From positions 1 to 20,052 of IMG/VR virus record IMGVR_UViG_3300044653_000013: DNA of 20,052 nucleotides; one strand, 5' to 3'. The DNA comes from a virus. Positions within the stretch are counted from its first letter, which is position 1; each line of letters opens with the position of its first letter. Below, in pieces: positions 3,303 to 16,228 of the stretch. Both the position numbers and the translations under genes were made by a program. The notes under the pieces were generated by a model that saw nothing but the letters and a program-made list of their open reading frames with translations, searched no databases and had not been told where the DNA came from.

Positions 3303-4319
3303 ATGAATTGGTTCACAGATAGTTTCTCGCATTATTCAACGCTGGCGCAAATTCTTGCTAAGTGGAACGGTCCTTCCGGCAATAACTTGGTTGTGGGAAG
3401 CGCTTACGCGATTGGCGCAGCTTCGCAAGGAATGCAAACGCAGAGTAATTCAGCGTTCCGTAATTTAGGTGACAATATTAGTACAGGTGCTTTTGGTGCT
3501 CGTTTTCGGTTAGATAGTACTTCTAGCGGAACCTTCCTCAATTTCTTTCAAGTGCTTGACCTTGGAACAGTACAATTAACTGTAAGTTACAATACAAGTG
3601 GACAATTATCGCTTTATCGAGGCGGAGGCGCACTCTTAGGCAGTGAACCGATTACTTTGACTTTGGGAACAGTTCACACTATTGAACTTGTCCCGGTAAT
3701 TGCTGGTGGGACTGGCGGCTCTTGCAGCGTTTACATTGACAATGTTCTTTTAATGACAATTACCGGCGTGAGTACAAGTGCGAGTGGTAATGGTTACTTC
3801 AATCAAGTTTCAATCGGTGACCCAAATCAATTCAAATTCATTTCATGGGCAGATGTATACCTAAATGATTTTACTGGCGCTGCGATGAACGTTCGCCTAG
3901 GTAATTGGTCAATTTTACCGTACACCGTGAATGCTGCCGGTACTTACGCCGAATTCACCCCTGGCGGAACTATCTTGGGAACAAATTACCAACAGCTAGA
4001 CAAGGCGCTCGCAAGCTCTGCCAGCTACAACGAGTCCACGACCGTGAGCAATCGAGATAACTTTCACATGGCTCCGGCCTTGGGAACGCTCCTAGGCGCA
4101 AGACAGTGGCTCTACGCGCAAGCCGGGGGCGGCGGATCGCGTGCAATCGCACTCACCTTGTCCAACTTTACGGATCAGATTGGAGTGAGTCAGTCTCTCG
4201 GATCAGAGGTTTACGGCTTCTTCACGGCTGATGCTTCAATTGATCCGTCTACGGGAGCGGCATGGGCATCCATATTTGCGCTGAATGCTTCAGAATCTGG
4301 TTACATCATTACTGTGTAG
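3303..4319 (+). CDS. Putative tail-associated protein with concanavalin/LamG-like fold, 338 aa
   Basis: It starts 10 bases after the tail-tip stop, and the Shine-Dalgarno GGAG overlaps that stop (TAGGAGAAATCAA-ATG), so the two genes form one transcription unit. Residues about 1-195 look like a beta-sandwich of the LamG/concanavalin A-like type: alternating strands, 'FGARFRLDSTSSGTFLNFFQ', a 'HTIELVPV' strand and 'CSVYIDNVLLMTI', the usual ligand-binding sandwich order in phage structural proteins. The C-terminal ~140 residues form a second module ending 'DPSTGAAWASIFALNASESG', a pattern I associate with the C-termini of phage LamG-like proteins. It may be a tail-tip accessory, fibre or adhesin; the position after TipJ supports this. 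No catalytic residues are recognisable. Its 3' end overlaps the convergent polymerase gene by 11 bases. Confidence 0.6.
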   Translation: MNWFTDSFSHYSTLAQILAKWNGPSGNNLVVGSAYAIGAASQGMQTQSNSAFRNLGDNISTGAFGARFRLDSTSSGTFLNFFQVLDLGTVQLTVSYNTSGQLSLYRGGGALLGSEPITLTLGTVHTIELVPVIAGGTGGSCSVYIDNVLLMTITGVSTSASGNGYFNQVSIGDPNQFKFISWADVYLNDFTGAAMNVRLGNWSILPYTVNAAGTYAEFTPGGTILGTNYQQLDKALASSASYNESTTVSNRDNFHMAPALGTLLGARQWLYAQAGGGGSRAIALTLSNFTDQIGVSQSLGSEVYGFFTADASIDPSTGAAWASIFALNASESGYIITV

Positions 4320-6408
4320 CTTCCCATTGTTGTGTAGCTGGATTAAATGCTGTTTCCATCTTACCCCATGATGGGCCGCGTTCAAGCTCGTACTTAACAG
4401 GTACACGCAAAGCCAAAGCATTCTCCATTATCCAATGCATATATTTGCCGGCTTCAATCTGTTGCGGCGAATCATCAATTACACTTCGACCATTTGAATC
4501 GTGGACCGTAAGCTTTGGGTATCCTGCGACCGCGTACACGCCATCTTTCAGACAGCGCCACATAGCTTTTTTCAAATTATCAGCGGCAGAACCTTGACAG
4601 CGACCGGCCATAGACTTGTGAGTACCAGCGCGTTGAATTTGCGAGCCGTATTCGCGTATTGCTTGTTGATAAGGAAATCCTGGATACCGTACATAGCTTT
4701 GCGTTTCTTCGTCCCATTCGCTTATTGGTTCCCACAGATCGAACCTGTAGCGGCGATTAAGGATGGTCGTAATATAGCCAAGTGCCTTAGCCTCATTTAT
4801 AAATGCTTGTTGTGAAGGCTTGATGAATGGGATTGCTTTGAAATAGGCTTCACGCATAACCTTTCCGGCTGGCAATGGACAATGTGCCATGCCACAAAGT
4901 TTGACTAAACCTAAGCCAAATAGTAGTCCAAAATTTGGTTCTTTAATAGTCATTCGGCCTGTTGCAAATGTTCCGGCAGCTACTTCCGAGGCGTTACGCG
5001 GAATATAGATTCCAGTGGCTTCTTTAATTGTCTGTTGTACAAGAGTATGATAATCCATGTCTGGATCATCAATATATTTTTGCCTGAATTCGTCAGATAG
5101 TGGCCCGACTGCGTAATGCATGAACATTCTATATTCGATTTGGGAATAATCACCATTCTCGAAACATAAGTGTCCTTCATCGGGCAGGAAACAAGTCATT
5201 ATTTGCTTGCCTAATTTTGTGCGTGATGGAATGTTCTGAAGATCGGGAGTAGAACTTGATAACCTTCCTGTTACAGTTCCACCGGCTTCGCCGCGTGAAC
5301 CTTCGTTTCTCAGAGGATGAAATTGACCATGAATGCGACCGTTGACATGACTCTTGAGAATGTATGATTCGATAAATGTATCGCGCAGCTTATAAAACTT
5401 CCTAACTTCAAGGATAAGTTCCGAGAGGGGATCAGTTTGGTCCATCAGCCAAGGTGCGGTGAAACTTCCCTTTTTTGTCTTAGGCGTAATTGGGTATTTG
5501 ATGTTAAGTGCGTCATAAGCTGGTGCGAGATCATCGGGAGATAGCACATTAATATTCTTGCCGGTCAAATCAAAGATAGACTTTTCACCTTTGATAATCT
5601 CTCGCGTCAGTTCTTTCTTCATTATTTGAGCTTTGTTAAGATCAACGCGACAGCCAAGCTTACGCATCATAACCCAGAGTGGAATTAACTCACACTCCAT
5701 GCGATATAAATCCCAAAGACCTTGCGCGTGAAGGAGCTTGAATTGATGGACAAGATTTAATCGAGGAAGTTTGGCATCCTGTTCCCCGTAAGGACCGGCG
5801 AGCTTCGGCGAGCTACGATAAATGTTGGATCGCTGTGCGCTTGTGGGTTCGCCGCCGTAAGCTTTAGCACACCACTCATACAGAATGCTCGATTCTTTGT
5901 GCAGACCGAGATACTTGGATGAAATGAATTCGAGTCTTACAGGATCGTCTTGCGTAAGAAGCGCTTCGGCAAATTGGCAATCATGCAATTCTCCAGTGAC
6001 CCAAATATCTTCATCGGTCGCGTTTCCAATGTCGTAAATAACATTGGCTCCGAATTTTGGTATATCCGGCGTAGTTTGCAGAACGTCTCGCCAATATTCA
6101 ATCGTTCTGCTGGCATCCAAATTAAGGTGTCGGTCAACTTCATGGCGAATGGGCCGATACTCAGTATAAGTTGATCCATCGCGGAATAAAAGATCAATTG
6201 AGCCTCCACAGATAGACGCCTTACCACGGCTCCAACCTGGACCTCTCTCAAAGTCATTCTCCTTTACTTCAAAATCAAATCCAATCGCAATAGCTTGTCG
6301 AAACGGAGGGTAGCTAGTTGGCGCTCGCCAGTTCGTTTCTGGCGTTAGCGGGAGATCAGCAAGGGAAGTTCGTTTGACGCTAGATAAATCTATGTTATCG
6401 AAAAACAT
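4309..6408 (-). CDS. Family A DNA polymerase with 3'-5' exonuclease domain, 699 aa
   Basis: This is a replicative phage polymerase of the Pol I family. The proofreading motifs are intact: Exo I DFE (D45/E47), Exo II N-x3-D (N122-D126) and Exo III Y-x3-D (Y207-D211). The polymerase core has TGRLSSSTPDLQNIP (380-394), motif A DYSQIEYR (D420, E425), motif B R485-x3-K489-x3-F493 followed by F497-G498, QGSAADNLKKAM (605-616), and motif C VHDS (H636, D637). Two positions are unusual: the Tyr that follows motif B in E. coli Pol I (Y766) is Phe497, and the usual HDE of motif C is HDS. No 5'-3' exonuclease domain is present, and 699 aa suits an exo-pol protein. It is the last gene of the minus-strand operon. 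The ATG at 6408 has no convincing Shine-Dalgarno sequence and may depend on coupling to upstream translation. Confidence 0.95.
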   Translation of the reverse strand: MFFDNIDLSSVKRTSLADLPLTPETNWRAPTSYPPFRQAIAIGFDFEVKENDFERGPGWSRGKASICGGSIDLLFRDGSTYTEYRPIRHEVDRHLNLDASRTIEYWRDVLQTTPDIPKFGANVIYDIGNATDEDIWVTGELHDCQFAEALLTQDDPVRLEFISSKYLGLHKESSILYEWCAKAYGGEPTSAQRSNIYRSSPKLAGPYGEQDAKLPRLNLVHQFKLLHAQGLWDLYRMECELIPLWVMMRKLGCRVDLNKAQIMKKELTREIIKGEKSIFDLTGKNINVLSPDDLAPAYDALNIKYPITPKTKKGSFTAPWLMDQTDPLSELILEVRKFYKLRDTFIESYILKSHVNGRIHGQFHPLRNEGSRGEAGGTVTGRLSSSTPDLQNIPSRTKLGKQIMTCFLPDEGHLCFENGDYSQIEYRMFMHYAVGPLSDEFRQKYIDDPDMDYHTLVQQTIKEATGIYIPRNASEVAAGTFATGRMTIKEPNFGLLFGLGLVKLCGMAHCPLPAGKVMREAYFKAIPFIKPSQQAFINEAKALGYITTILNRRYRFDLWEPISEWDEETQSYVRYPGFPYQQAIREYGSQIQRAGTHKSMAGRCQGSAADNLKKAMWRCLKDGVYAVAGYPKLTVHDSNGRSVIDDSPQQIEAGKYMHWIMENALALRVPVKYELERGPSWGKMETAFNPATQQWEATQ

Positions 6409-6506
6409 TTTCGTTCTATTGTTACAATTGTGTCATTGTGTGCTGCGCCATGCGTTATTAATCGAATACGCATCATTTCAAAAGAGCGCGTTTTGCAAGT
6501 AATCAT
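6390..6506 (-). CDS. Possible 38-aa basic micro-protein bridging the GNAT-like and polymerase genes
   Basis: The ATG at 6506-6504 overlaps the TGA of the GNAT-like gene (ATGA). The frame runs to a TAG at 6392-6390, 19 bases into the polymerase gene. The product begins MITCKTRSFEMMRIRLIT and is net basic. No Shine-Dalgarno sequence of its own is visible, so it would have to be translated by termination-reinitiation, as seems usual in this operon. If translated, it would carry ribosomes to the poorly signalled polymerase start. The support is only its fit with the operon's overlap pattern and with an otherwise empty 94-base gap; no homologue is recognised. Confidence 0.35.
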   Translation of the reverse strand: MITCKTRSFEMMRIRLITHGAAHNDTIVTIERKCFSIT

Positions 6507-6880
6507 TTTCGTGGATACCGAATCATTTCATTACTAAATAATCGTTCAAAGCCTCTCCGCTGATACCACGCGATTAATTGTATTTCGTCCATCCCATCAA
6601 CATCGTCCATTGCACAAACGCCTAATGATATTTGAACATGGTAGTGGTCGGCGATCTCGCATAACCAAAGAATGCATTCGGTAGCATACCCATTGCGTCG
6701 AAGTAATGCTTTCGTAGAAATGTTCAAAATACGAACTTCAATTTTGTTGACTACACAAACATTTATTAAGACAACGCTACGAAATAAACGACTGCTCCCT
6801 TTCGTGCCTCGTGTACCATCCCGAAAAGCTAATCTAAAAAGGGATGTCTTCGTCAATATCGGGTTTATGCAAGTGCTCAT
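6503..6880 (-). CDS. Small GNAT-like acetyltransferase, 125 aa
   Basis: The C-terminal half reads as a GNAT fold. A beta-strand (KIEVRILNIST) leads into the acetyl-CoA pyrophosphate-binding signature R61-R-N-G-Y-A66 (the R/QxxGxG/A motif) and helix ATECILWLCEIADHY. Then come the 'VQISLGV' strand and the terminal 'LIAWYQRRGFERLFSNEMIRYPR', the usual GNAT motif B. The N-terminal ~45 residues match less clearly, so the acceptor substrate is unknown. The start at 6880 is chosen because a strong AGAGGAG lies 9 bases before that ATG; it places the start 47 bases inside the 3' end of the clamp-like gene. Acetylation of a host or phage protein or of a small molecule is possible but cannot be read from sequence. 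Confidence 0.6.
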   Translation of the reverse strand: MSTCINPILTKTSLFRLAFRDGTRGTKGSSRLFRSVVLINVCVVNKIEVRILNISTKALLRRNGYATECILWLCEIADHYHVQISLGVCAMDDVDGMDEIQLIAWYQRRGFERLFSNEMIRYPRK

Positions 6881-7856
6881 GGAAAATAACTCCTCTGAGA
6901 TTGTCACCAAAAAATGCTGTACCATCCGGTCGTGCGTTTGCATTCCACTTTGTTGCATGGCGCGAAATGTACATCAAATCTTCGCTCAAATAGATACGCG
7001 GTTCGTAACGTTCTCCCTCAAATGGAAGAGAAAGACCGCTGCCTTCTTCTTTCGTGCCAAACGGATGGGAACTTACTAAATTGCCTTCAACATAAATCTT
7101 ACCCACAGAGAAAGGCTCGACCTTCTTAACGGCATCGAAAAAACTCTTGTCAACCGCGTGCGGAATGCCTTGACTTGAAAGCATTGCATTTACGCTGGAC
7201 GGCCATTTCGTGTCAAAACATTTGGTGAATAACCAAGTAGAATCTTCAAAGTAGAATGTGACACTAGTTGTGGAGAAACCAAATGCTGTGATCTTTTTCT
7301 TCGCTTTGCGAAGTTTCATGTATGCGAGTTTCGGAATAAGCATTCCTGTGGGAAAGGAACAACCGTGCCATGCTTCCATAATCACACTTCGATTGGTTGC
7401 TACGACACTTCCGTCGTTTAATTGGATGGACGTTTCTAGGACAGTTTCTCCGGCCGTGGTCGCAAGACCGGCGATTTTGTCCAGAGCCTCGATAAAACGC
7501 TCATCTAAAGGGGCAACGGCAGCGTCAGGCTGGCACCAGACGAACGCGGACGGATCAAGGCAGGGGACATAGGCATGGAAATCGCCGGAGCGCACAAGGA
7601 GCTTGGAGGGGGAAAGTTGGGTGATGGCAAATTCCATCCCGGCGCGTTCGATAGCGGCTTGAAAAAGTGCTATCTGTGGGCACGCGGATAAGTCTTCCTC
7701 AATCGGCGTCCCTACACCGATTGTCAAATTGAAAGACACGGCTCGATTTTCATCAATACGACAATAGGTTGATTGATCTTCGCCAATCTTGTACGGAATG
7801 GTGAGGAAATCAAGTGCTTGCTCAAGCGAGCTCTTCGGATTTTTCTTTGGAGGCAA
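6834..7856 (-). CDS. DNA sliding-clamp-like (DnaN/beta-like) protein with SSB-like C-terminal tip, 340 aa
   Basis: The pattern resembles bacterial beta clamps. The middle domain reads 'ERFIEALDKIAGLAT' - 'ETSIQLNDGSVVATNRSVIM' - 'ILIPKLAYMKL'-like - 'SVTFYFEDSTWLFTKCFDTKWPS', the clamp's helix-strand order ending in the Phe/Trp-Pro turn. The end 'DGTAFFGDNLRGVIFHE' resembles the last clamp strand, and 340 aa suits three clamp domains. The protein then ends KPDIDEDIPF, nearly identical to the acidic tip of bacterial SSB (E. coli ends DFDDDIPF), which recruits host repair and replication proteins. The start codon is TTG at 7856, one codon after the in-frame TAA of the previous gene; no ATG exists before residue 73. 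A clamp role fits its place just upstream of the polymerase. Alternative: an unrelated beta-rich replication accessory protein. Confidence 0.5.
   Translation of the reverse strand: MPPKKNPKSSLEQALDFLTIPYKIGEDQSTYCRIDENRAVSFNLTIGVGTPIEEDLSACPQIALFQAAIERAGMEFAITQLSPSKLLVRSGDFHAYVPCLDPSAFVWCQPDAAVAPLDERFIEALDKIAGLATTAGETVLETSIQLNDGSVVATNRSVIMEAWHGCSFPTGMLIPKLAYMKLRKAKKKITAFGFSTTSVTFYFEDSTWLFTKCFDTKWPSSVNAMLSSQGIPHAVDKSFFDAVKKVEPFSVGKIYVEGNLVSSHPFGTKEEGSGLSLPFEGERYEPRIYLSEDLMYISRHATKWNANARPDGTAFFGDNLRGVIFHEHLHKPDIDEDIPF
6890..6896 (-). promoter_or_regulatory. Shine-Dalgarno AGAGGAG that fixes the GNAT-like start
   Basis: On the minus strand AGAGGAG stands 9 bases before the ATG at 6880, inside the coding sequence of the upstream clamp-like gene. 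It is the best ribosome-binding site in this part of the operon. It favours this ATG over the longer frame starting at 6958. Confidence 0.7.
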
Positions 7857-7859
7857 GAA

Positions 7860-8153
7860 TTATAAACCTACGTGCGTTCGTTTGAGAAACACAAGCGCTT
7901 GCATATTTGATTCAGCTTCGCCTAAAGTTTCGGGAGTAAGGTTCTTCGCTCGCTTCAGTAGCAAGTAAGCGCGCTTGCGAAAGTATTCTTTCTTGCGGTT
8001 GCCGCAATCGCCATAGCCGTGATCGTGAGATGGCGGACTATGCGGAACACCCATTGCTTTGCACGTTGCACGATAATTTTCGTGAAGTTGCTTTGCAATC
8101 ATTTCAATTATTGGACCGCGCTTCGGAACGAATGTTAATTCTTCAATACTCAT
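7860..8153 (-). CDS. Hypothetical phage protein, 97 aa
   Basis: I do not recognise a family. The protein is mostly helical and basic (R/K-rich 'NRKKEYFRKRAYLLLKRAKN'), with a His/Pro/Cys-containing central loop 'PHSPPSHDHGYGDCGNRKK'. The start ATG at 8153 has GGAGG nine bases upstream and lies 11 bases inside the helicase gene, so it is a genuine operon member. Its TAA is followed in the same frame by one codon and then the TTG start of the clamp-like gene. The neighbours (helicase, clamp-like protein) suggest a replication accessory role, but that is context only. Confidence 0.7.
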   Translation of the reverse strand: MSIEELTFVPKRGPIIEMIAKQLHENYRATCKAMGVPHSPPSHDHGYGDCGNRKKEYFRKRAYLLLKRAKNLTPETLGEAESNMQALVFLKRTHVGL

Positions 8154-9741
8154 AGCCCAATACCTCCGGGTACTTCTTATTAGTCCAAACCCTAATACGT
8201 CTTGGAACCTTCAAGGCCGAAACATACTTCAAAGCTTCGTCTGTTGTTGGAGGCGCTTCTTTCACTCCCATGCGCTCTCTCCACCAGTTACGTGCTTTGA
8301 TTGCTGCGAAGCCTGTGTGCTCTAAACAAATCCATTCGCTAAACATCTGTAAACCACAAAAGTATGAAACCTTAATCATTGCCGGTCTTCCTGGCTTTTG
8401 CTTTCGATTGTATACCACTCGTTGAACTTCAAATTGACCGTAGATTGGCTCAACTTCTTGCCGTACCAATTCTTCAGTTCCGGCACTCTTTACCAGTTTT
8501 TCAACTTTAGGAAATTCAGCACCACAGGCACAACAAACCACAGCGCGAGCATGATTGTACACACCGCAACTATCACAAATACGAACCGGCGCAATCCCTG
8601 GTACGGCTCCTTTAATTCTTTTGCGAGGAAGAACAGGATCGTTGATAGGACCAAGGCGCGGAGTGTTTCTCGCAAAGTCGAGTACAAGGCAGTTCTCCTT
8701 TAACGTTGCTGGTGACGGTCGCGTACCTCGACCTAGCATCTGTACCCACAGATTAGTGCTCGCTGTGGGCCGGAGCATTAAGATAAAATCAATCGGTGGA
8801 TGATTAAATCCGGTTGTCAACTTCCCGTAATTAATGATGCACCGAATATCTCCGCGCTTAAATGCTTTAATACGTTCATCAGCAAGATCACCTTTTAGTT
8901 TTGAGTGAACTACCGCGCAATCAATGCCCAAACTGCTTAGGACGGTTTCGATGTGTTCCGCGTGTTCAATGCCAGATGCAAATGCGAGCCAACATTGTCT
9001 GTCGAATCCTTCTTCGACCGCCTCTTGACAAGCGGCGTAGGTGACAGACTCAATATCAACTGCGCGTTGTAATTGATCTTGGTTAAAGTCTCCCGCAACG
9101 ATCTTAACTGAGGACGTGTCAAGTTCAGTTTTCGTGCGTTTGGGAACGGGCGGAACGAGAAAACCTTCAGAGATGAGGCGGTTAAATCCTTGGAAGGTCG
9201 TGAGATCATAACAGATGTCGGTAAATAAACCGTCCTCCGTGAGTAATCCTTGTCCTGTTCGATACGGTGTTGCTGTGAAACCAATCACGCGAAGATGCGA
9301 ATTGATCGTCTTTAATCCTGTAATGACTTTTTGATAATTCGTGCCGTCTTTCGGTGAGATAAGATGGGCTTCGTCAACGAGCATAAGGTCACGATGACCA
9401 AACTTATCAATGCAATTGACCACACTTTGAACTCCCCCGTAAATAAGAGGAAAATGTGTATCCCGAGTGTTAAGCCCAGAGCTAAATATCCCAAGAGGAA
9501 CAGACGGCCATTGTTCACGAATGTCTTCTGCATTTTGTTCAATTAGCTCCTTTACGTGTGTCAAACAAATGATGCGTTGGCGCGGAAATCGCGTAAGCAC
9601 GTTCTTGCAGAACAGCGAGATAACTAAAGACTTCCCGGTTGCTGTGGGCAATGCGATAACTGGATTACCAATTCCACCTTTCTCGTAGTAATTCCAAATA
9701 GAAGCTTCAGCTTCGACTTGATACCAACGTGGAACGTGCAT
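8143..9741 (-). CDS. Superfamily 2 DEAH helicase with zinc ribbon, 532 aa
   Basis: This is an ATP-dependent SF2 helicase/translocase of the phage ResIII/SSL2-like type. Counting from the ATG at 9741: Q-motif-like 'RWYQVEAEA' near the N-terminus, Walker A PTATGKS (32-38), Walker B DEAH (123-126), motif III TATP (156-159), motif V 'KLTTGFNHPPIDFI', and motif VI QMLGRGTR (334-341). A zinc ribbon CxxC...CxxC follows (389-392 and 403-406). The ATG at 9741 is preferred over a TTG at 9801: it overlaps the preceding stop (TAATG) and places the conserved N-terminal motif at the usual distance, although the ribosome-binding site is weak. Family knowledge: such helicases remodel forks, D-loops or recombination intermediates. 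Being encoded with a polymerase, nuclease and Sak4-like ATPase fits replication/recombination. Confidence 0.93.
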   Translation of the reverse strand: MHVPRWYQVEAEASIWNYYEKGGIGNPVIALPTATGKSLVISLFCKNVLTRFPRQRIICLTHVKELIEQNAEDIREQWPSVPLGIFSSGLNTRDTHFPLIYGGVQSVVNCIDKFGHRDLMLVDEAHLISPKDGTNYQKVITGLKTINSHLRVIGFTATPYRTGQGLLTEDGLFTDICYDLTTFQGFNRLISEGFLVPPVPKRTKTELDTSSVKIVAGDFNQDQLQRAVDIESVTYAACQEAVEEGFDRQCWLAFASGIEHAEHIETVLSSLGIDCAVVHSKLKGDLADERIKAFKRGDIRCIINYGKLTTGFNHPPIDFILMLRPTASTNLWVQMLGRGTRPSPATLKENCLVLDFARNTPRLGPINDPVLPRKRIKGAVPGIAPVRICDSCGVYNHARAVVCCACGAEFPKVEKLVKSAGTEELVRQEVEPIYGQFEVQRVVYNRKQKPGRPAMIKVSYFCGLQMFSEWICLEHTGFAAIKARNWWRERMGVKEAPPTTDEALKYVSALKVPRRIRVWTNKKYPEVLGYEY

Positions 9742-9896
9742 TAGTAAATGAATCCAATTATGAAATAGCGTACTATACCTTTTTGTTCTGCCGTTGCCCA
9801 AATTTGCTTACGTTGCGGGTATAGAAGGAAATAGCCGTCCCAGTTCCATACCCATCCTTCGGTATATGCGTAATGCAATCGAATGAAAGGTTTCAT
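9741..9896 (-). CDS. Small Trp/Tyr-rich protein, 51 aa
   Basis: The ATG at 9896-9894 overlaps the TGA of the preceding gene (ATGA). The TAA at 9743-9741 overlaps the helicase ATG (TAATG). The product starts MKPFIRLHYAYTEGWVWNWD and ends IVRYFIIGFIY; it is aromatic-rich with a hydrophobic C-terminus. An in-frame ATG four codons earlier (9908) is an alternative start. The double overlap and clean filling of an otherwise empty gap make this a real gene in my view. Overlapping frames on the same strand (a 68-aa frame at 9808-10014) lack this fit. No family is recognised. Confidence 0.6.
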   Translation of the reverse strand: MKPFIRLHYAYTEGWVWNWDGYFLLYPQRKQIWATAEQKGIVRYFIIGFIY

Positions 9897-10132: not shown

Positions 10133-10340
10133 CGTTGCTCACTTTCCCAACCACGTAGCCAATTAAGATGGGCTTAAATTTAATTTGTTTGAATGCATGG
10201 CGTATTTCCCAATAAGAATCCTGACTTGGGTAAGCGTAAACTAATCCCGTTTTTCGCTCATTCGGAGATGGATTCAACGGGACGAACATTCGCACGCGAA
10301 TACGTTTCCAAAGCGTTACCGTGTCGCTATCTGTTGCCAT
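10119..10340 (-). CDS. Hypothetical phage protein, 73 aa
   Basis: The start is set at the ATG at 10340, because AAAGGA lies 8 bases before it. An in-frame ATG at 10349 has that same purine tract pressed directly against it and is less likely. The gene begins within the 3' end of the nuclease gene (25-base overlap). The product begins MATDSDTVTLWKRIRVRMF, with further beta-like segments (TGLVYAY, PILIGYVVGKV). No family is recognised. Confidence 0.65.
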   Translation of the reverse strand: MATDSDTVTLWKRIRVRMFVPLNPSPNERKTGLVYAYPSQDSYWEIRHAFKQIKFKPILIGYVVGKVSNDENF

Positions 10341-11233
10341 GCTTCGCATCCTTTCGGTATTTCATCAGGTGGAATGATTGCGTTCCAATGCCCACAATGC
10401 CATTGCTTTTCTGGCATTGGAGTAGCCTGAACACAGCTTCGACAGTTCTTTATTGCAGGTTCTCCAAAGTGACAAATCGGTCGTGCAGCACACATCTTAC
10501 ATTTCCAAAATGACGGTAGCTCGCTAAGGCGCGGCGGTGGAAATGTAGAACGGATAATTGCTTCGGCGCGTTCCGTTTGCTGATTCGCCAATGACCAATC
10601 AAGTTCAACGAGTTCAATGTTAAGATCGTCGTTTTCTTTATTGACTGCGATATAAAGGCAGTAATGAATGTTCATCCGGCTACCATAAACTGATGCCTGA
10701 ATGAAATGCATTGGTTTTTCTTTCTGAACTCCACTGCCCAATAGAATGTTAAAGCGTTCATCTTTTTGCGTTTTGATCTCTAACAGGATCGGAGGAAACT
10801 TACCGTAGCGTTCGGGTAGGGCGGCAACGCCATCGCCTGATCCTCCACCATGTCCACTCGCAAATGCGATATGGAATTGCTTTCCGTCAACATCAACTTG
10901 CTTAACTAAAAAGCCTACGCCAGTGAGCCATTCAATAACGCGATTCTCTTCAAGGTGTCCTCGTTGAAAAAGCCGCTGCATTCGACCACTAAATACTTCC
11001 CGAAACATCCAACGAAAACTAAACCACAAATAGCGGTCACATTCGTGACCAATGATGCTTGCACCCAAATGAGTACGCGGACCATCGTCATACTGTTTTT
11101 GGCACCATTCGTCAATATCTTTTTGAATTCGTTCCGCAAGCGCATCACGACCGGCGAACGTTTCAATGTCAAATGATCGACATTCGTCATCGCTTGGAGA
11201 ACTAATTTTAACGAGTTTGTTTTGTTTAATCAT
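10316..11233 (-). CDS. PD-(D/E)XK nuclease, Cas4/RecB type, probable Fe-S protein, 305 aa
   Basis: The nuclease core is visible: 'GDGVAAL' with D134, 'ILLEIKT' with E152 and K154 (the D...ExK signature), and QASVY (Q179, Y183), the RecB-family QxxxY motif. Four cysteines are placed as in Cas4/AddB Fe-S nucleases: C65 (GHECDRY) in the N-terminal helical part, and C245, C248 and C254 (WKCKMCAARPICH) after the core. Additional C264, C267 and C280 could bind a second metal. Family knowledge: such enzymes degrade or resect DNA ends, often 5'-3', to make recombinogenic ssDNA. Placed between the DUF669 and helicase genes, it probably supplies end-processing for phage recombination-dependent replication. 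The ATG at 11233 has no strong Shine-Dalgarno sequence. There is no cas1/cas2 nearby, so a CRISPR adaptation role is not indicated. Confidence 0.88.
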   Translation of the reverse strand: MIKQNKLVKISSPSDDECRSFDIETFAGRDALAERIQKDIDEWCQKQYDDGPRTHLGASIIGHECDRYLWFSFRWMFREVFSGRMQRLFQRGHLEENRVIEWLTGVGFLVKQVDVDGKQFHIAFASGHGGGSGDGVAALPERYGKFPPILLEIKTQKDERFNILLGSGVQKEKPMHFIQASVYGSRMNIHYCLYIAVNKENDDLNIELVELDWSLANQQTERAEAIIRSTFPPPRLSELPSFWKCKMCAARPICHFGEPAIKNCRSCVQATPMPEKQWHCGHWNAIIPPDEIPKGCEAWQQIATR

Positions 11234-11324: not shown

Positions 11325-11978
11325 TTACCGTGCCCACGCTGGACGTTCGGTTGCTGCGGGTGCGGCTGGTGCTCCGCCCCAGACTGGCGCTGCGGGTGCA
11401 GTCGGTGCCGTCGGTCCTGGCGCTGTCCATGCTGGCGCTGCCTGTGCTGGCGGTCCCCATGAAGGAGCTGGTGCGGTCGGTGCCGGAGCCGTAGGCGAGG
11501 GTGGTCCCCATGCCGGTGCTGCGGTTACTTGCGCGATAGGCGCGGCGGGAGGATACGCTGTGGTGCCAGCTTTGCCCGGAGCGTTACCGTCAATATCCTT
11601 CACGCCAAAGACCTTGGTATATTGCGGGTTCTCAAGCTGTGGTCCGAGAATAGCAATAAATGGAATGTTGTGTAGCTGCCGCGTGTCAGAAACGTTGAAT
11701 TGCTTCGTTACGTGGCAGATTGCGGAAAGTTCGCGGCGAGCGATGTCACAAGCTTGCTGACTCGCATTGAACAAGTTAAGCCCATACTGAATCTTGCGAT
11801 TCAGTTGTGCCCCTGGATCGAGAATTTGCAGTTGAAAGACTAGCCTTCCTCCCGTTTTGTCTTTCGTCTCAACAGGCTCGCTATCGGTGATTACTACATG
11901 ATAGTCACCCATTGGAGGCGGCGGAGCAAAGCTTGAAGGGTCAACTTGTCGTGCGTCGAATGGTTGTTGAAATTGCAT
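11325..11978 (-). CDS. DUF669 family phage protein (putative ssDNA-binding) with Ala/Pro/Trp-rich tail, 217 aa
   Basis: Residues about 23-115 match the DUF669 pattern found in many phage recombination modules: GDYHVVITDSEPVETKDKTGG, LVFQLQILD, RKIQYGLNLFNASQQACDIARREL and 'LSAIC'. The family commonly sits beside Sak4-like or AAA ATPases and is thought to bind DNA, though a biochemical role is not settled. Residues about 138-217 form an 80-residue low-complexity tail of Ala, Pro, Thr and Gly punctuated by Trp157, 174, 184, 200 and 215. It has no acidic SSB tip. The start at 11978 is chosen over an upstream TTG because AAAGGAG stands 6 bases before this ATG. The tail is visibly more GC-rich than the body of the gene. 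Confidence 0.8.
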   Translation of the reverse strand: MQFQQPFDARQVDPSSFAPPPPMGDYHVVITDSEPVETKDKTGGRLVFQLQILDPGAQLNRKIQYGLNLFNASQQACDIARRELSAICHVTKQFNVSDTRQLHNIPFIAILGPQLENPQYTKVFGVKDIDGNAPGKAGTTAYPPAAPIAQVTAAPAWGPPSPTAPAPTAPAPSWGPPAQAAPAWTAPGPTAPTAPAAPVWGGAPAAPAATERPAWAR

Positions 11979-11984
11979 TTGTTT

Positions 11985-11991
11985 CTCCTTT
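11985..11991 (-). promoter_or_regulatory. Shine-Dalgarno AAAGGAG deciding the DUF669 start
   Basis: A consensus AAAGGAG on the minus strand lies 6 bases before the ATG at 11978. It rules against the longer TTG-initiated frame that overlaps the ATPase stop. Confidence 0.75.
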
Positions 11992-11998
11992 GTGAAAT

Positions 11999-12673
11999 TC
12001 AAAACCCTAAAATCTTCTTAAATACGACTGTCAAATCCGGCTGTTCAAACTCTTCAAGCATACCGCTGCGATCTCTCGCCGCGTGCTGAAAAGTGGTCTT
12101 CGTGCAAAGACAACGATAACGTGGATCGCCGGGATGCTGAATCATCCGAAAGACTTCATCAAAGAAATATGGAAGTTGTGGACCAAGTTTTTGTCCCGGC
12201 ATCATCGGACGATAACGTGTAATACCTGTATCTTCTTCCTTTGTCCATTCTTCTTTCGCTACCACGACTACGCTTTTCCCCGGCATATCGCGGAACCACC
12301 GAACACGTTCAATAACTTTGTCGATAATTTCGCCAAATGCCTTTCTCGGGTCTTTCGTCTTTCGCTTCTCTTCAGCTAAACAAGTTTCGGCGATCTCAGA
12401 AACGCTGTCTAAGCCATACGTGTAAAACTGTTTCGCTTCGGACGATTGAACAATCCAGCGCATAGCATCATCCAATCCGGCGATGCTCTTAACTTCGATG
12501 TAAGGAACGTGCTGGCGTCGAAGTGAAAGTAAACCATTCTCTGCGCTTATGATGACCGGCAACGGGGCCGTCGCTAAAAGAGGCGTCTTGCCTATGCCAT
12601 ATTGACCATACAGCATAACCTTGATACCATCGCGTAGCGGATCGGCTCCGTCGGTATATTGAAGTTGAATCAT
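11999..12673 (-). CDS. Sak4-like / AAA_24 phage P-loop ATPase, 224 aa
   Basis: A RecA-type phage nucleotide-binding protein. Walker A GQYGIGKT occupies residues 23-30. The Sak4/AAA_24 features follow: 'PVIISAENGLLSLRR', a 'FYTYGLDSVSEI' strand with the Walker B-like D89-S90, and 'SVVVVAKEEW' near 134-143. The end, 'YRCLCTKTTFQHAARDRSG', resembles the C-terminal region of this family. Family knowledge: Sak4 proteins promote single-strand annealing and recombination and are often beside a DUF669 or SSB gene, as here. The start at 12673 is chosen because it overlaps the TGA of the 39-aa ORF (ATGA). A frame extending to 12838 would overlap that ORF and lacks a ribosome site. Lengths near 220-280 aa are usual. 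Confidence 0.85.
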   Translation of the reverse strand: MIQLQYTDGADPLRDGIKVMLYGQYGIGKTPLLATAPLPVIISAENGLLSLRRQHVPYIEVKSIAGLDDAMRWIVQSSEAKQFYTYGLDSVSEIAETCLAEEKRKTKDPRKAFGEIIDKVIERVRWFRDMPGKSVVVVAKEEWTKEEDTGITRYRPMMPGQKLGPQLPYFFDEVFRMIQHPGDPRYRCLCTKTTFQHAARDRSGMLEEFEQPDLTVVFKKILGF

Positions 12674-12789
12674 CCTTTCCCCATTTGTTCTGTAGCTTTC
12701 ACGACGAGCGCCGTCAACGCCTTCAAGAATAGTGCAAGTTCCGTTTGCCAACTTGACGCGGGCGTTGCGACATACGATTGATCGTCCAT
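12670..12789 (-). CDS. 39-aa micro-protein preceding the Sak4-like ATPase
   Basis: A strong AAAGGAG sits 7 bases before the ATG at 12789, directly after the stop of the upstream gene. The TGA overlaps the ATPase ATG (ATGA). The product is MDDQSYVATPASSWQTELAL followed by an amphipathic segment FLKALTALVVKATEQMGKG. The ribosome-binding site and precise overlaps at both ends argue for real translation. I recognise no family; a helical partner or regulator of the ATPase is a guess based on coupling. Confidence 0.65.
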   Translation of the reverse strand: MDDQSYVATPASSWQTELALFLKALTALVVKATEQMGKG

Positions 12790-12796
12790 AAGGAAA

Positions 12797-12803
12797 CTCC
12801 TTT
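12797..12803 (-). promoter_or_regulatory. Shine-Dalgarno AAAGGAG of the 39-aa ORF
   Basis: A consensus ribosome site 7 bases before the ATG at 12789. It also explains why the long frame starting at 12838 is not the true ATPase start. Confidence 0.75.
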
Positions 12804-13331
12804 CTAAAAACCCTCTTTGAACGAAACACCGTCTTCAATGACAGTCGCGCCAGCTTCCACAGTGGGCGGTGGAGGGGTTTTTTCTTTTGGTGGAATTAGT
12901 TCAAGAACCGGCATTCCCGGCTTGACAGTCGTGGCGGCTGCAATCAAGGCGTTCAGCGCCGGATGTTGCTCTGCGAGCTTGAGAACTTCGCGGTACGCTG
13001 TCACAGAAAGTTCCGGCTTCCATTTCACAAGAGACTGTGCAATGCCAGGATCAATCGCAGCGACGGCACTCAAAAGCGCTTCCATTTGACCGGACTGGTT
13101 AGTTGCTGAATAATTCATACTCTTCGTCGCCTTAAGTCGATAGTCCCAACCGATGTCAATTGACTCAGTTCCTTCCAGCTTCGTTGCCGTAAAATTCATC
13201 TCGACAAGTTTGACACGCAATTGATTCTCTTTACTTTTCACTTCGGCCAATTGGGAAGAAGCTTGAACCCAATCGGTAATCAACTGAGTCGTATCTTTGT
13301 CAAGATCAACTTTTGCTATTTTCTTCGGCAT
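12804..13331 (-). CDS. Conserved phage protein of unknown function (coiled-coil N-terminus), 175 aa
   Basis: The N-terminal ~45 residues (DTTQLITDWVQASSQLAEVKSKENQLRVKLVEM) are predicted helical or coiled-coil. The core ends with 'SLVKWKPELSVTAYREVLKLAEQHPALNALIAAATTVKPGMPVLELIPPK'. The WKPELS..Y and kPg.P.LELIPPK patterns recur in small phage proteins encoded near DUF669/Sak4 or RecT-like recombination genes, but I know no established function. The C-terminal ~25 residues are Pro/Thr/Val-rich and end with an acidic patch. The start ATG at 13331 has GGAG about 9 bases upstream and overlaps the preceding gene by 16 bases. It is probably a recombination or replication accessory protein (inference). 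Confidence 0.75.
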   Translation of the reverse strand: MPKKIAKVDLDKDTTQLITDWVQASSQLAEVKSKENQLRVKLVEMNFTATKLEGTESIDIGWDYRLKATKSMNYSATNQSGQMEALLSAVAAIDPGIAQSLVKWKPELSVTAYREVLKLAEQHPALNALIAAATTVKPGMPVLELIPPKEKTPPPPTVEAGATVIEDGVSFKEGF

Positions 13332-13909: not shown

Positions 13910-16228
13910 ATGTTCCCAGAAGAATTGAAAGCGTACCCACAATGGGTGCTCTGGCGCGAGGCGCAAAAACCCGATGGTGAATATACCAAAGTGCCGGTTA
14001 ATCCGCACGATGGTACGCTTGCCGCATCAAACAATCCGTTAACATGGTCCACATTTGACATTGCGTTTGCATCGTCCAAACGCCTAATTTGCGGCATTGG
14101 CTTCATGCTCGCGGAGAGCGATCCATACGCTTTCATTGACCTAGATGATCCACGACGCATAAAAAAGGGAAGGCTGATCCGCTCAGAAGATGAGTGCTCC
14201 GCAATTGATCTCCGTCAAATAAAGATATTTGATACATTTGACAGCTACAGCGAACGTTCGCCATCCGGCAAAGGATTGCATATCATTGTCAAAGGCTCCG
14301 TACCAAGCGGACGGCGTAGAGATGAAGTTGAAGTTTATTCATCTTTGCGTTTTATGACAATGACCGGCGATACTTTTAGTGATAAACCAATTGCAGAGCG
14401 CAATGATTTGCTTCGCGTCTTGTGGGAAGAGATTGGAGGGAAAAACAATGACCAAACTGAAATTCGAGAATCAGAGCAAAAATACGATGATCGAGATATA
14501 TATGAACAAGCACGTCAAGCGGTTAACGGCGACAAGTTCTTGCTTCTTTGGAATGGTGATTGGATTAGTGCTGGTTATTCTTCGCAATCCGAAGCTGATT
14601 TTTCTCTTATCAACATGCTCGGTTTCTACTCACGTAATGTTTCACAGATCAAAAGATTATTTTATATTTCGGCTCTCGGACAACGAGACAAAGCTAAACG
14701 AAAAAACTATATTGAAAAGATGATTCAGCGAAGTTTTGACAATCAACCTGCTTTTATTGATTTTGCCGAATTGGACGCCAATCTCAAAAAAGAGTTGGAC
14801 GTGAAATCAAATGAACACGCAACGCCTAATCCGTACCTTGGTCCTCTCTTTGGGAACGTCCCTGATCCCGAGTATGATTACACTACTCCCCCTGGCTTGC
14901 TTGGGGAAATTGCTCAATTTATTTACGAGAGTGCCCCTCGACAAGTCAAAGAAATCGCATTGGCAGCTTCAATTGGCCTTATGGCTGGCATTTGTGGTAG
15001 AGCCTACAATGTTTCCTCAAAGGGACTCAATCAATACGTCCTGTTACTTGCGAAAACTGGTACTGGTAAGGAAACTGTTGCGAGTGGAATTGACAAAATC
15101 ATGCGTGAGGTACGAGTACAGTGTCCCTCAGCGGTTGAGTTCCTTGGTCCGTCGGCGATTGCTTCGGGGCAAGCGATTATAAAACATCTTGCTAAACAGC
15201 CGTGCTGCGTAGCTATTGTTGGTGAATTCGGATTAGTTATGCAGTCTATGTGTTCTGAACATGCCGATGCAAATAAGATTCTTCTCCGAAAAACATTGCT
15301 TGAACTATACATGAAATCAGGTAGTCAGGACACCCTCCGCGCCACATGGTATAGTGATAAGCGTGATGATACGCCTTCGGTAGCGAGTCCGGCATTTTCA
15401 ATCCTGGGAGAATCGACGCCTAGCACTTACTATACGGGACTAGATGAATCAATGATTGCACAAGGTTTGTTGCCGCGCTTCATGGTAATTGAATACAACG
15501 GTCAACGACCACAGTTTAATAAAAAACACGCTTCGGTTAAACCGTCTGAGGCCTTCATTACGCGAGTCTCTGAACTATGCGAAAACTGCCATTCGCTGAT
15601 GGCACATGGAAGAGTAGTAGAAATTCAACTAGACAGCGATGCTGAAGCCTTTCTAGATGAGTACGAAAAGAAAACTACGGACAGCATTAACAATTCCGAC
15701 CTCGTTTTGGCAAATGAATTATGGAATCGCGCCAGCTTGAAGATGGTTAAGCTTGCTGCGCTCATAGCTGTGGGCAACAATCCTTATGCGCCCTTAGTGA
15801 GCCTTCCTGATATAAAATGGGCACATGATCTTGTCGAACGGGATATTAGTGCTGTTTTTAAACGCTTTGATACAGGGGAAATTGGCCGTGAGACGGGCGA
15901 AGGCAATCAACTTCACGATCTCGAATTGTTGATTCGAGATTATCTTATTCGACCATTTGATGACCACTTACGGAAGTATGTCGTTGATCCTAGAATGCAC
16001 GGAGATCGCGTGATTTCATGGAGTTATTTGAATCGACGCATTACGCAAAAGGGATCGTATAGGAATGATCGTGTTGGCGCGTCATTTGCCTTACGTCGCT
16101 CAATTGAAGCTTTATTACTTGACGGTTCAATACGTGAAGTACGCCAAGTGGATATGGAGAAACGTTACGGCAGGACATCGAAAGGTTTTGGAATCGTTGA
16201 AATCAATCACTTCATCAATCGTCGCTAA
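13910..16228 (+). CDS. Bifunctional primase-polymerase (AEP-like) and DUF3987 helicase, 772 aa
   Basis: The N-terminal part is an archaeo-eukaryotic primase-like domain: 'PEELKAYPQWVLWRE', 'TKVPVNPHDG', 'GIGFMLAESDPYAFIDLDD' with catalytic-type D77/D79, 'SPSGKGLHIIVKG' with H124, and 'RFMTMTGD' (148-154). Residues 227-275 (SEADFSLINMLGFY...NYIEKMI) match the primase C-terminal helical region. The C-terminal half is a DUF3987-type P-loop ATPase with Walker A AKTGTGKE (381-388) and 'AIVGEFG' (435-441) as the Walker B-like site. In Walker A the residue after Lys is Glu, where Ser/Thr is usual. The architecture matches phage and mobile-element replication initiators that prime and unwind DNA. It begins immediately after the HTH stop, so both are on one transcript, opposite to the polymerase operon. 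Confidence 0.9.
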   Translation: MFPEELKAYPQWVLWREAQKPDGEYTKVPVNPHDGTLAASNNPLTWSTFDIAFASSKRLICGIGFMLAESDPYAFIDLDDPRRIKKGRLIRSEDECSAIDLRQIKIFDTFDSYSERSPSGKGLHIIVKGSVPSGRRRDEVEVYSSLRFMTMTGDTFSDKPIAERNDLLRVLWEEIGGKNNDQTEIRESEQKYDDRDIYEQARQAVNGDKFLLLWNGDWISAGYSSQSEADFSLINMLGFYSRNVSQIKRLFYISALGQRDKAKRKNYIEKMIQRSFDNQPAFIDFAELDANLKKELDVKSNEHATPNPYLGPLFGNVPDPEYDYTTPPGLLGEIAQFIYESAPRQVKEIALAASIGLMAGICGRAYNVSSKGLNQYVLLLAKTGTGKETVASGIDKIMREVRVQCPSAVEFLGPSAIASGQAIIKHLAKQPCCVAIVGEFGLVMQSMCSEHADANKILLRKTLLELYMKSGSQDTLRATWYSDKRDDTPSVASPAFSILGESTPSTYYTGLDESMIAQGLLPRFMVIEYNGQRPQFNKKHASVKPSEAFITRVSELCENCHSLMAHGRVVEIQLDSDAEAFLDEYEKKTTDSINNSDLVLANELWNRASLKMVKLAALIAVGNNPYAPLVSLPDIKWAHDLVERDISAVFKRFDTGEIGRETGEGNQLHDLELLIRDYLIRPFDDHLRKYVVDPRMHGDRVISWSYLNRRITQKGSYRNDRVGASFALRRSIEALLLDGSIREVRQVDMEKRYGRTSKGFGIVEINHFINRR

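Follow-up and report, generated by a model that had tools for sequence, protein, structure and literature searches.

The viral DNA analysed here, hereafter the window (20,052 nucleotides, positions 1 to 20,052 of IMG/VR record IMGVR_UViG_3300044653_000013), encodes a sliding clamp, a beta-type DNA polymerase processivity factor (positions 6834–7856, minus strand), whose C terminus carries the acidic IPF tip of bacterial SSB. The tip, which binds many partners at the replication fork and has been pursued as a drug target, is usually treated as belonging to SSB itself. In the window, the phage SSB ends without it, and we consider it probable that the clamp bears a flexible tail ending in a functional docking tip of the SSB type, provided in trans for that tipless SSB. 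Comparison with related siphophages leads us to favour, on balance, a broader reading for the group, in which the SSB tip is a detachable, relocatable signal that is absent from the phage SSB and is carried in trans by usually one unrelated replisome protein, so that the fork hub for tip-binding enzymes is whichever protein bears it, here the clamp.

The clamp ORF opens with TTG, encodes 340 residues and terminates in ...HLHKPDIDEDIPF-stop; its codons confirm what the first-pass annotation had read on the minus strand, namely KPDIDEDIPF followed directly by a stop, here TAG. Against the PHROGs it matches phrog_947 (DNA polymerase processivity factor) at E 3.4e-39. By tblastn, 298 phage records match it, all at less than 60% identity, and the best matches, from Septimatrevirus and kin and from E. 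coli phage Shy, reach approximately 35–36%; many of the matching records are annotated as replicative clamp or processivity factor. A search with the single sequence returned one relative only and a scan of bacterial and archaeal genomes two, both in MAG contigs, while a profile of nine relatives reached PDB structures of DnaN at E 1.5e-6. The AlphaFold (AF2) model, computed with 54 natural sequences as input, has a pLDDT of 93.2 and a pTM of 0.88. Its top Foldseek matches are DnaN (E 1.5e-17, TM 0.73), and VIA aligns model residues 6–328 with residues 6–366 of the 372 in DnaN (Z 26.8 across 316 residues). The first model residue is protein residue 2, and the clamp fold proper spans protein residues 7–329 or thereabouts (6870–7838, minus strand), with the whole bacterial DnaN chain covered. 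As modelled, the protein is a full three-domain DnaN-type ring subunit, which bears out the earlier clamp assignment, and we rejected the reading that it is not a clamp on the strength of the AF2 model, the Foldseek match and the VIA score. No SSB match was found for it in Pfam or the PHROGs, and its fold is that of a clamp, so it does not belong to the OB-fold SSB families. No clamp loader was found among the annotated genes of Pseudomonas phage 73, a phage with a related, tip-bearing clamp.

The VIA alignment stops at model residue 328, and the tip-bearing C-terminal residues therefore lie outside the clamp fold. This tail (residues 330–340; 6837–6869, minus strand) is probably disordered, given its low pLDDT (mean of approximately 62 over the last nine residues, as in a disordered tail), its position past the DnaN alignment and the variability of the corresponding linker in relatives. 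The tip itself, DIDEDIPF, occupies positions 6837–6860 on the minus strand with TAG directly after it, its last five residues being those conserved in tip-bearing clamps, and the clamp is alone among the window ORFs of at least 40 aa in ending with PF or PY. Among relatives, tipless clamps mostly stop at a conserved RGxxxG, where the clamp fold ends, whereas tip-bearing clamps continue past it with a tail that is highly variable in length and sequence (median distance from RG to the end, 9 versus 30 residues). Across 39 tip-bearing clamps, entropy is approximately 3–3.8 bits at linker positions −20 to −7 and falls to 0.63, 0.55, 0.62, 0.00 and 0.17 bits at the last five positions, where Pro is encoded by all four of its codons and Ile by three. 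Since the linker is hypervariable, yet the last five residues are near-invariant and encoded by varying codons, the tip is not a chance ending; on this sequence pattern, the clamp tip is under purifying selection. Tip-bearing helicases show a similar drop in entropy at their ends. Across the six frames of phage 73, no ORF but the clamp has an acidic IPF end; the tail peptide of that clamp reads NPSDNYEDDIPF, compared with HKPDIDEDIPF in the window. The tip, for which the first-pass annotation had proposed a search in homologues, is thus present in many of them, though not all.

The clamp belongs to a replication and recombination module in the order PolA, clamp, 97-aa ORF, RadD-like helicase, Cas4-like exonuclease, DUF669 SSB, Sak4 and a DUF7173 protein, followed by the primase on the other strand (13910–16228, plus strand; phrog_3022, E 1e-212). 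The family A DNA polymerase (4309–6408, minus strand; PF00476, E 4e-50) is the presumed user of the clamp. Approximately 425 bases (6409–6833) separate the clamp stop from the polymerase start, where annotated relatives mostly have almost none; this gap contains the 3′ part of an ORF (6503–6958, minus strand) that has no significant family match. On its other side, the clamp starts 3 nt past the stop of the 97-aa ORF (7860–8153, minus strand), which lies between helicase and clamp, has no significant family and occupies the slot of a tip-bearing zinc-finger protein in many relatives; it gave no match to an HMM of that protein. The helicase (8143–9801, minus strand) is an SF2 enzyme with a zinc ribbon (phrog_16, E 9.5e-91; RadD in the PDB, E 9.9e-51) and ends KYPEVLGYEY, with no tip. 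Beyond it lie the Cas4-domain exonuclease (10316–11233, minus strand; phrog_1990, E 1e-94), the DUF669 SSB (11325–12002, minus strand; PF05037, E 6e-8; phrog_6015, E 8e-46) and a Sak4-like RecA-fold annealase (11999–12838, minus strand; phrog_124, E 2e-47; AAA_24, E 2e-21), itself a candidate client of the tip. The SSB ends RPAWAR, in agreement with the earlier observation that it lacks the tip.

To see which proteins carry the tip in this lineage, we scored a loose version of it in 252 loci comprising 29,320 ORFs. It occurs on 109 of 135 zinc-finger proteins, 51 of 236 clamps and 46 of 224 helicases (Queuovirinae-type relatives are among those whose helicase C terminus can bear it), and on 2 of 190 exonucleases, one phage being counted twice. 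None of the lineage's 145 DUF669 SSBs has it, nor do any of 113 Sak4 proteins, 48 polymerases, 78 primases and 112 DUF7173-type proteins. In the remaining ORFs (at least 40 aa and outside the named families) it was scored in 11 of 28,039, most of the 11 having no acidic run. In one phage, the Cas4-like exonuclease (L096:6595–7620) ends DSDIPF and the zinc-finger protein is tipped as well.

The most frequent carrier is a zinc-finger-like protein of approximately 75 aa with the pattern CxxC...C...RPPARVIxxGC...DDIPF, whose gene sits after the helicase gene and often overlaps the helicase stop. It corresponds to phrog_23504, a PHROG of unknown function (L019:9446–9658 and approximately 130 relatives, with an SSB-type tip in most phages), and found no Pfam family above the cut-off. 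Its cysteines suggest that it binds zinc, and it is similar to the cysteine domain at the C terminus of the Cas4-like exonuclease (hhalign E 1e-6, probability 91). In locus L150, where the clamp ends SDDVPF, the zinc-finger protein (5409–5669) reads DKDDIPFDYPLTKT-stop (...DKDDIPF-DYPLTKT-stop), and its tip is no longer terminal because a seven-residue extension buries the DDIPF; judged by this ending, the protein is a fossil of a former tip. Degraded zinc-finger tips also occur in three loci in which the helicase is tipped.

The carriers tend to exclude one another. Among loci collected through patterns of the clamp core, which exclude the tail and hence are independent of the tip, 95 have both clamp and helicase, and 84 of these have exactly one carrier: the zinc-finger protein only (40), the clamp only, in loci where no zinc-finger protein was found (33), the clamp beside a tipless zinc-finger protein (8) or the helicase only (3). 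Two carriers occur once (L098), and no carrier was found in the locus sequence examined for the remaining 10, two of which have eroded clamp tips (DDISV and DDEIQF) and eight none at all. When the set was enlarged to 181 loci, at the cost of some bias, one carrier was found in 158, two in 4 and none in 19 by a strict rule, several of these 19 having a weaker ending, for example PPF. In that set, a tip on the clamp and a tip elsewhere are strongly disassociated (Fisher p 3e-19, uncorrected for relatedness), and counts from the zinc-finger-seeded scan may lean toward tip-bearing zinc-finger proteins because every seed row carries the tip. Tested by independent pairs on the helicase tree, the exclusion did not reach significance (median p 0.25), few pairs being informative. 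As the informative pairs are too few, the case for exclusion rests on the overall pattern, the tipless or buried zinc-finger tips and the repeated switches rather than on that test. Taken together, the sequences make the tip look like a working signal that moves between proteins.

Switching is evident on a helicase-core tree of 155 rows, on which the clamp tip changes state at least nine times (seven of these changes being forced by starred branches) and the helicase tip five times. The window, with its clamp tip, is sister to L001, which has a zinc-finger tip (support 96). Outside the lineage, the tip is found on SSB: the DUF669 SSB of phage HK620 ends NDYPPF, and a scan of viral contigs for DDDIPF-TAA, whose matches of known function fall mostly in SSB families, returned tip-bearing DUF669 SSBs in L270, L286, L299, L337 and L369, the first four of which adjoin Sak4. 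The same scan recovered, in L274, a tipped helicase close to a DUF669 SSB that lacks the tip and, in L363, a clamp with the tip. These findings support the earlier suggestion that the docking signal may have moved from SSB onto the clamp, DUF669 SSBs being tipped elsewhere and never in the lineage itself. Change from SSB to the other carriers is the direction that we infer from this comparison.

Several further endings deserve mention. Many scan matches in L255–L333 fall in PHROGs with no assigned function (phrog_25370, 19 of 77; phrog_862, 8; also phrog_1811, phrog_2544 and phrog_2402), and these could possibly be unrecognised SSBs or further non-SSB carriers. HK620 hkaM (L254:5754–5942), a small orphan beside sak4, ends PSELPF, a weak form of the tip, in the phage whose SSB has NDYPPF. 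The DUF669 SSBs of the window's lineage often end in a recurrent motif of their own, WGQR, WGAR or WGQK (PAWAR in the window), preceded by a long low-complexity tail, and this ending may be a second docking signal that replaces the IPF tip.

In bacterial SSB tips, the terminal Phe and its carboxylate dock into hydrophobic pockets that have basic residues around them (PMC10238739), and the free C-terminal Phe of the phage tip would be expected to dock into pockets like those. In the mechanism that we propose, a phage whose DUF669 SSB has no tip would place one on a single other replication protein, the clamp in the window and the zinc-finger protein or the RadD-like helicase in relatives, and this tip would draw tip-binding enzymes to a phage fork from which the tipless phage SSB would have displaced host SSB. 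That one role is shared by all bearers is an assumption, as the carriers differ biochemically. As for the partner, we see roughly an even chance that the tip engages host SSB-interacting proteins such as PriA, RecG, RadD, the clamp-loader chi subunit and others; Sak4 of the phage itself is a tentative candidate, and some other phage protein is likewise conceivable but doubtful.

The candidacy of Sak4 amounts to an alternative reading of the system, namely that the tip serves the phage's own annealase, which the clamp, the zinc-finger protein or the helicase would recruit to the fork. HK620 provides the precedent, where the tip of the DUF669 SSB recruits Sak4, and where Sak4 binding, stimulation and recruitment require the final six residues of the SSB (PMC5928155); the same paper reported the Sak4 of phage 73 to be insoluble. 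The adjacency of Sak4 to tip-bearing DUF669 SSBs in four loci outside the lineage fits this reading, as does the occurrence of Sak4 in most lineage loci with the SSB gene in view. However, 13 loci without a strict tip have Sak4 all the same, HK620 Sak4 needed the SSB to be on ssDNA in order to bind the tip while a clamp sits on duplex DNA, and the lineage SSB's own WGQR, WGAR or WGQK end could serve Sak4 instead. We regard this reading as possible but rather doubtful. The phage's own RadD-like helicase, considered as a partner on the model of the SSB tip binding E. coli RadD, is improbable in our estimation. It is a RadD relative encoded next to tip carriers, and the mapped RadD pocket (PMC10238739) is partly recognisable in phage helicases, which keep the hydrophobic floor; 86 of the 87 helicases examined have K or R at the position of R145, the last having a gap. 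Yet R21 and R49, two of the three pocket arginines, are not conserved among the 87, which led us to disfavour and not adopt this partner; moreover, one lineage's helicase is itself tipped, and its AF2 model leaves that tip disordered and not docked within the molecule.

The remaining two readings concern what the tip does rather than whom it serves. It could be a decoy, absorbing nucleases or repair proteins of the host that interact with SSB and so keeping them away from phage DNA, a role consistent with its canonical bacterial sequence and one that very different carriers could presumably all perform; its carriers are fork and recombination proteins of one module, whereas a decoy would need neither a clamp nor a helicase, and we think this explanation unlikely. 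That the tip is merely an acidic end arising by chance, with no function, is highly improbable: some relatives do lack a clamp tip and a few apparently lack any, but the near-zero entropy of the last five residues despite synonymous codon variation, the far higher rate in clamps than in other ORFs and the mutual exclusion of carriers all argue against it. For the family, we rejected chance on the tip rate together with the entropy and codon pattern. Our preferred reading remains that of a functional docking tip borne in trans.

With the tip off SSB, one copy per phage as a rule and several independent switches, these phages offer a natural system in which ssDNA binding is separated from partner recruitment. 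With them, one can ask directly which of the tip-binding enzymes are really needed at a fork and where they must be delivered, and they point to a likely function-bearing feature for phrog_23504 and for the replication clamps of phages already known, Pseudomonas phage 73 among them. Within the open-licence papers covered, a scope that makes this a weak negative, we came across neither an SSB tip on a phage clamp or on another protein that is not an SSB, nor its relocation. The clamp is known and the tip is known; their combination is new, and it shifts from phage to phage.

Each component can be set beside a characterised counterpart. The window helicase is a relative of E. coli RadD, a known tip binder with a pocket for the SSB C terminus (PMC10238739), but differs where phage helicases fail to conserve R21 and R49. 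The clamp shares its whole three-domain fold (Z 26.8) with bacterial DnaN and the phrog_947 clamps of Septimatrevirus and Queuovirinae, and with the phage clamps of that family also the gene order of clamp then PolA; the tail lies past the end of the alignment with bacterial DnaN, and the window clamp and approximately one-fifth of the sampled phage relatives differ in adding this variable, SSB-tipped extension. The HK620 system consists of the same SSB and annealase families encoded by adjoining genes (PMC5928155), but its tip is on the SSB; in the window's lineage the SSB has none, and a different protein bears it. Finally, the tail resembles the C terminus of E. coli SSB (DDDIPF) in placing acidic residues and IPF at the very end of the chain behind a flexible, variable linker; unlike that of bacterial SSB, it is found here on a clamp, a zinc-finger protein or a helicase.
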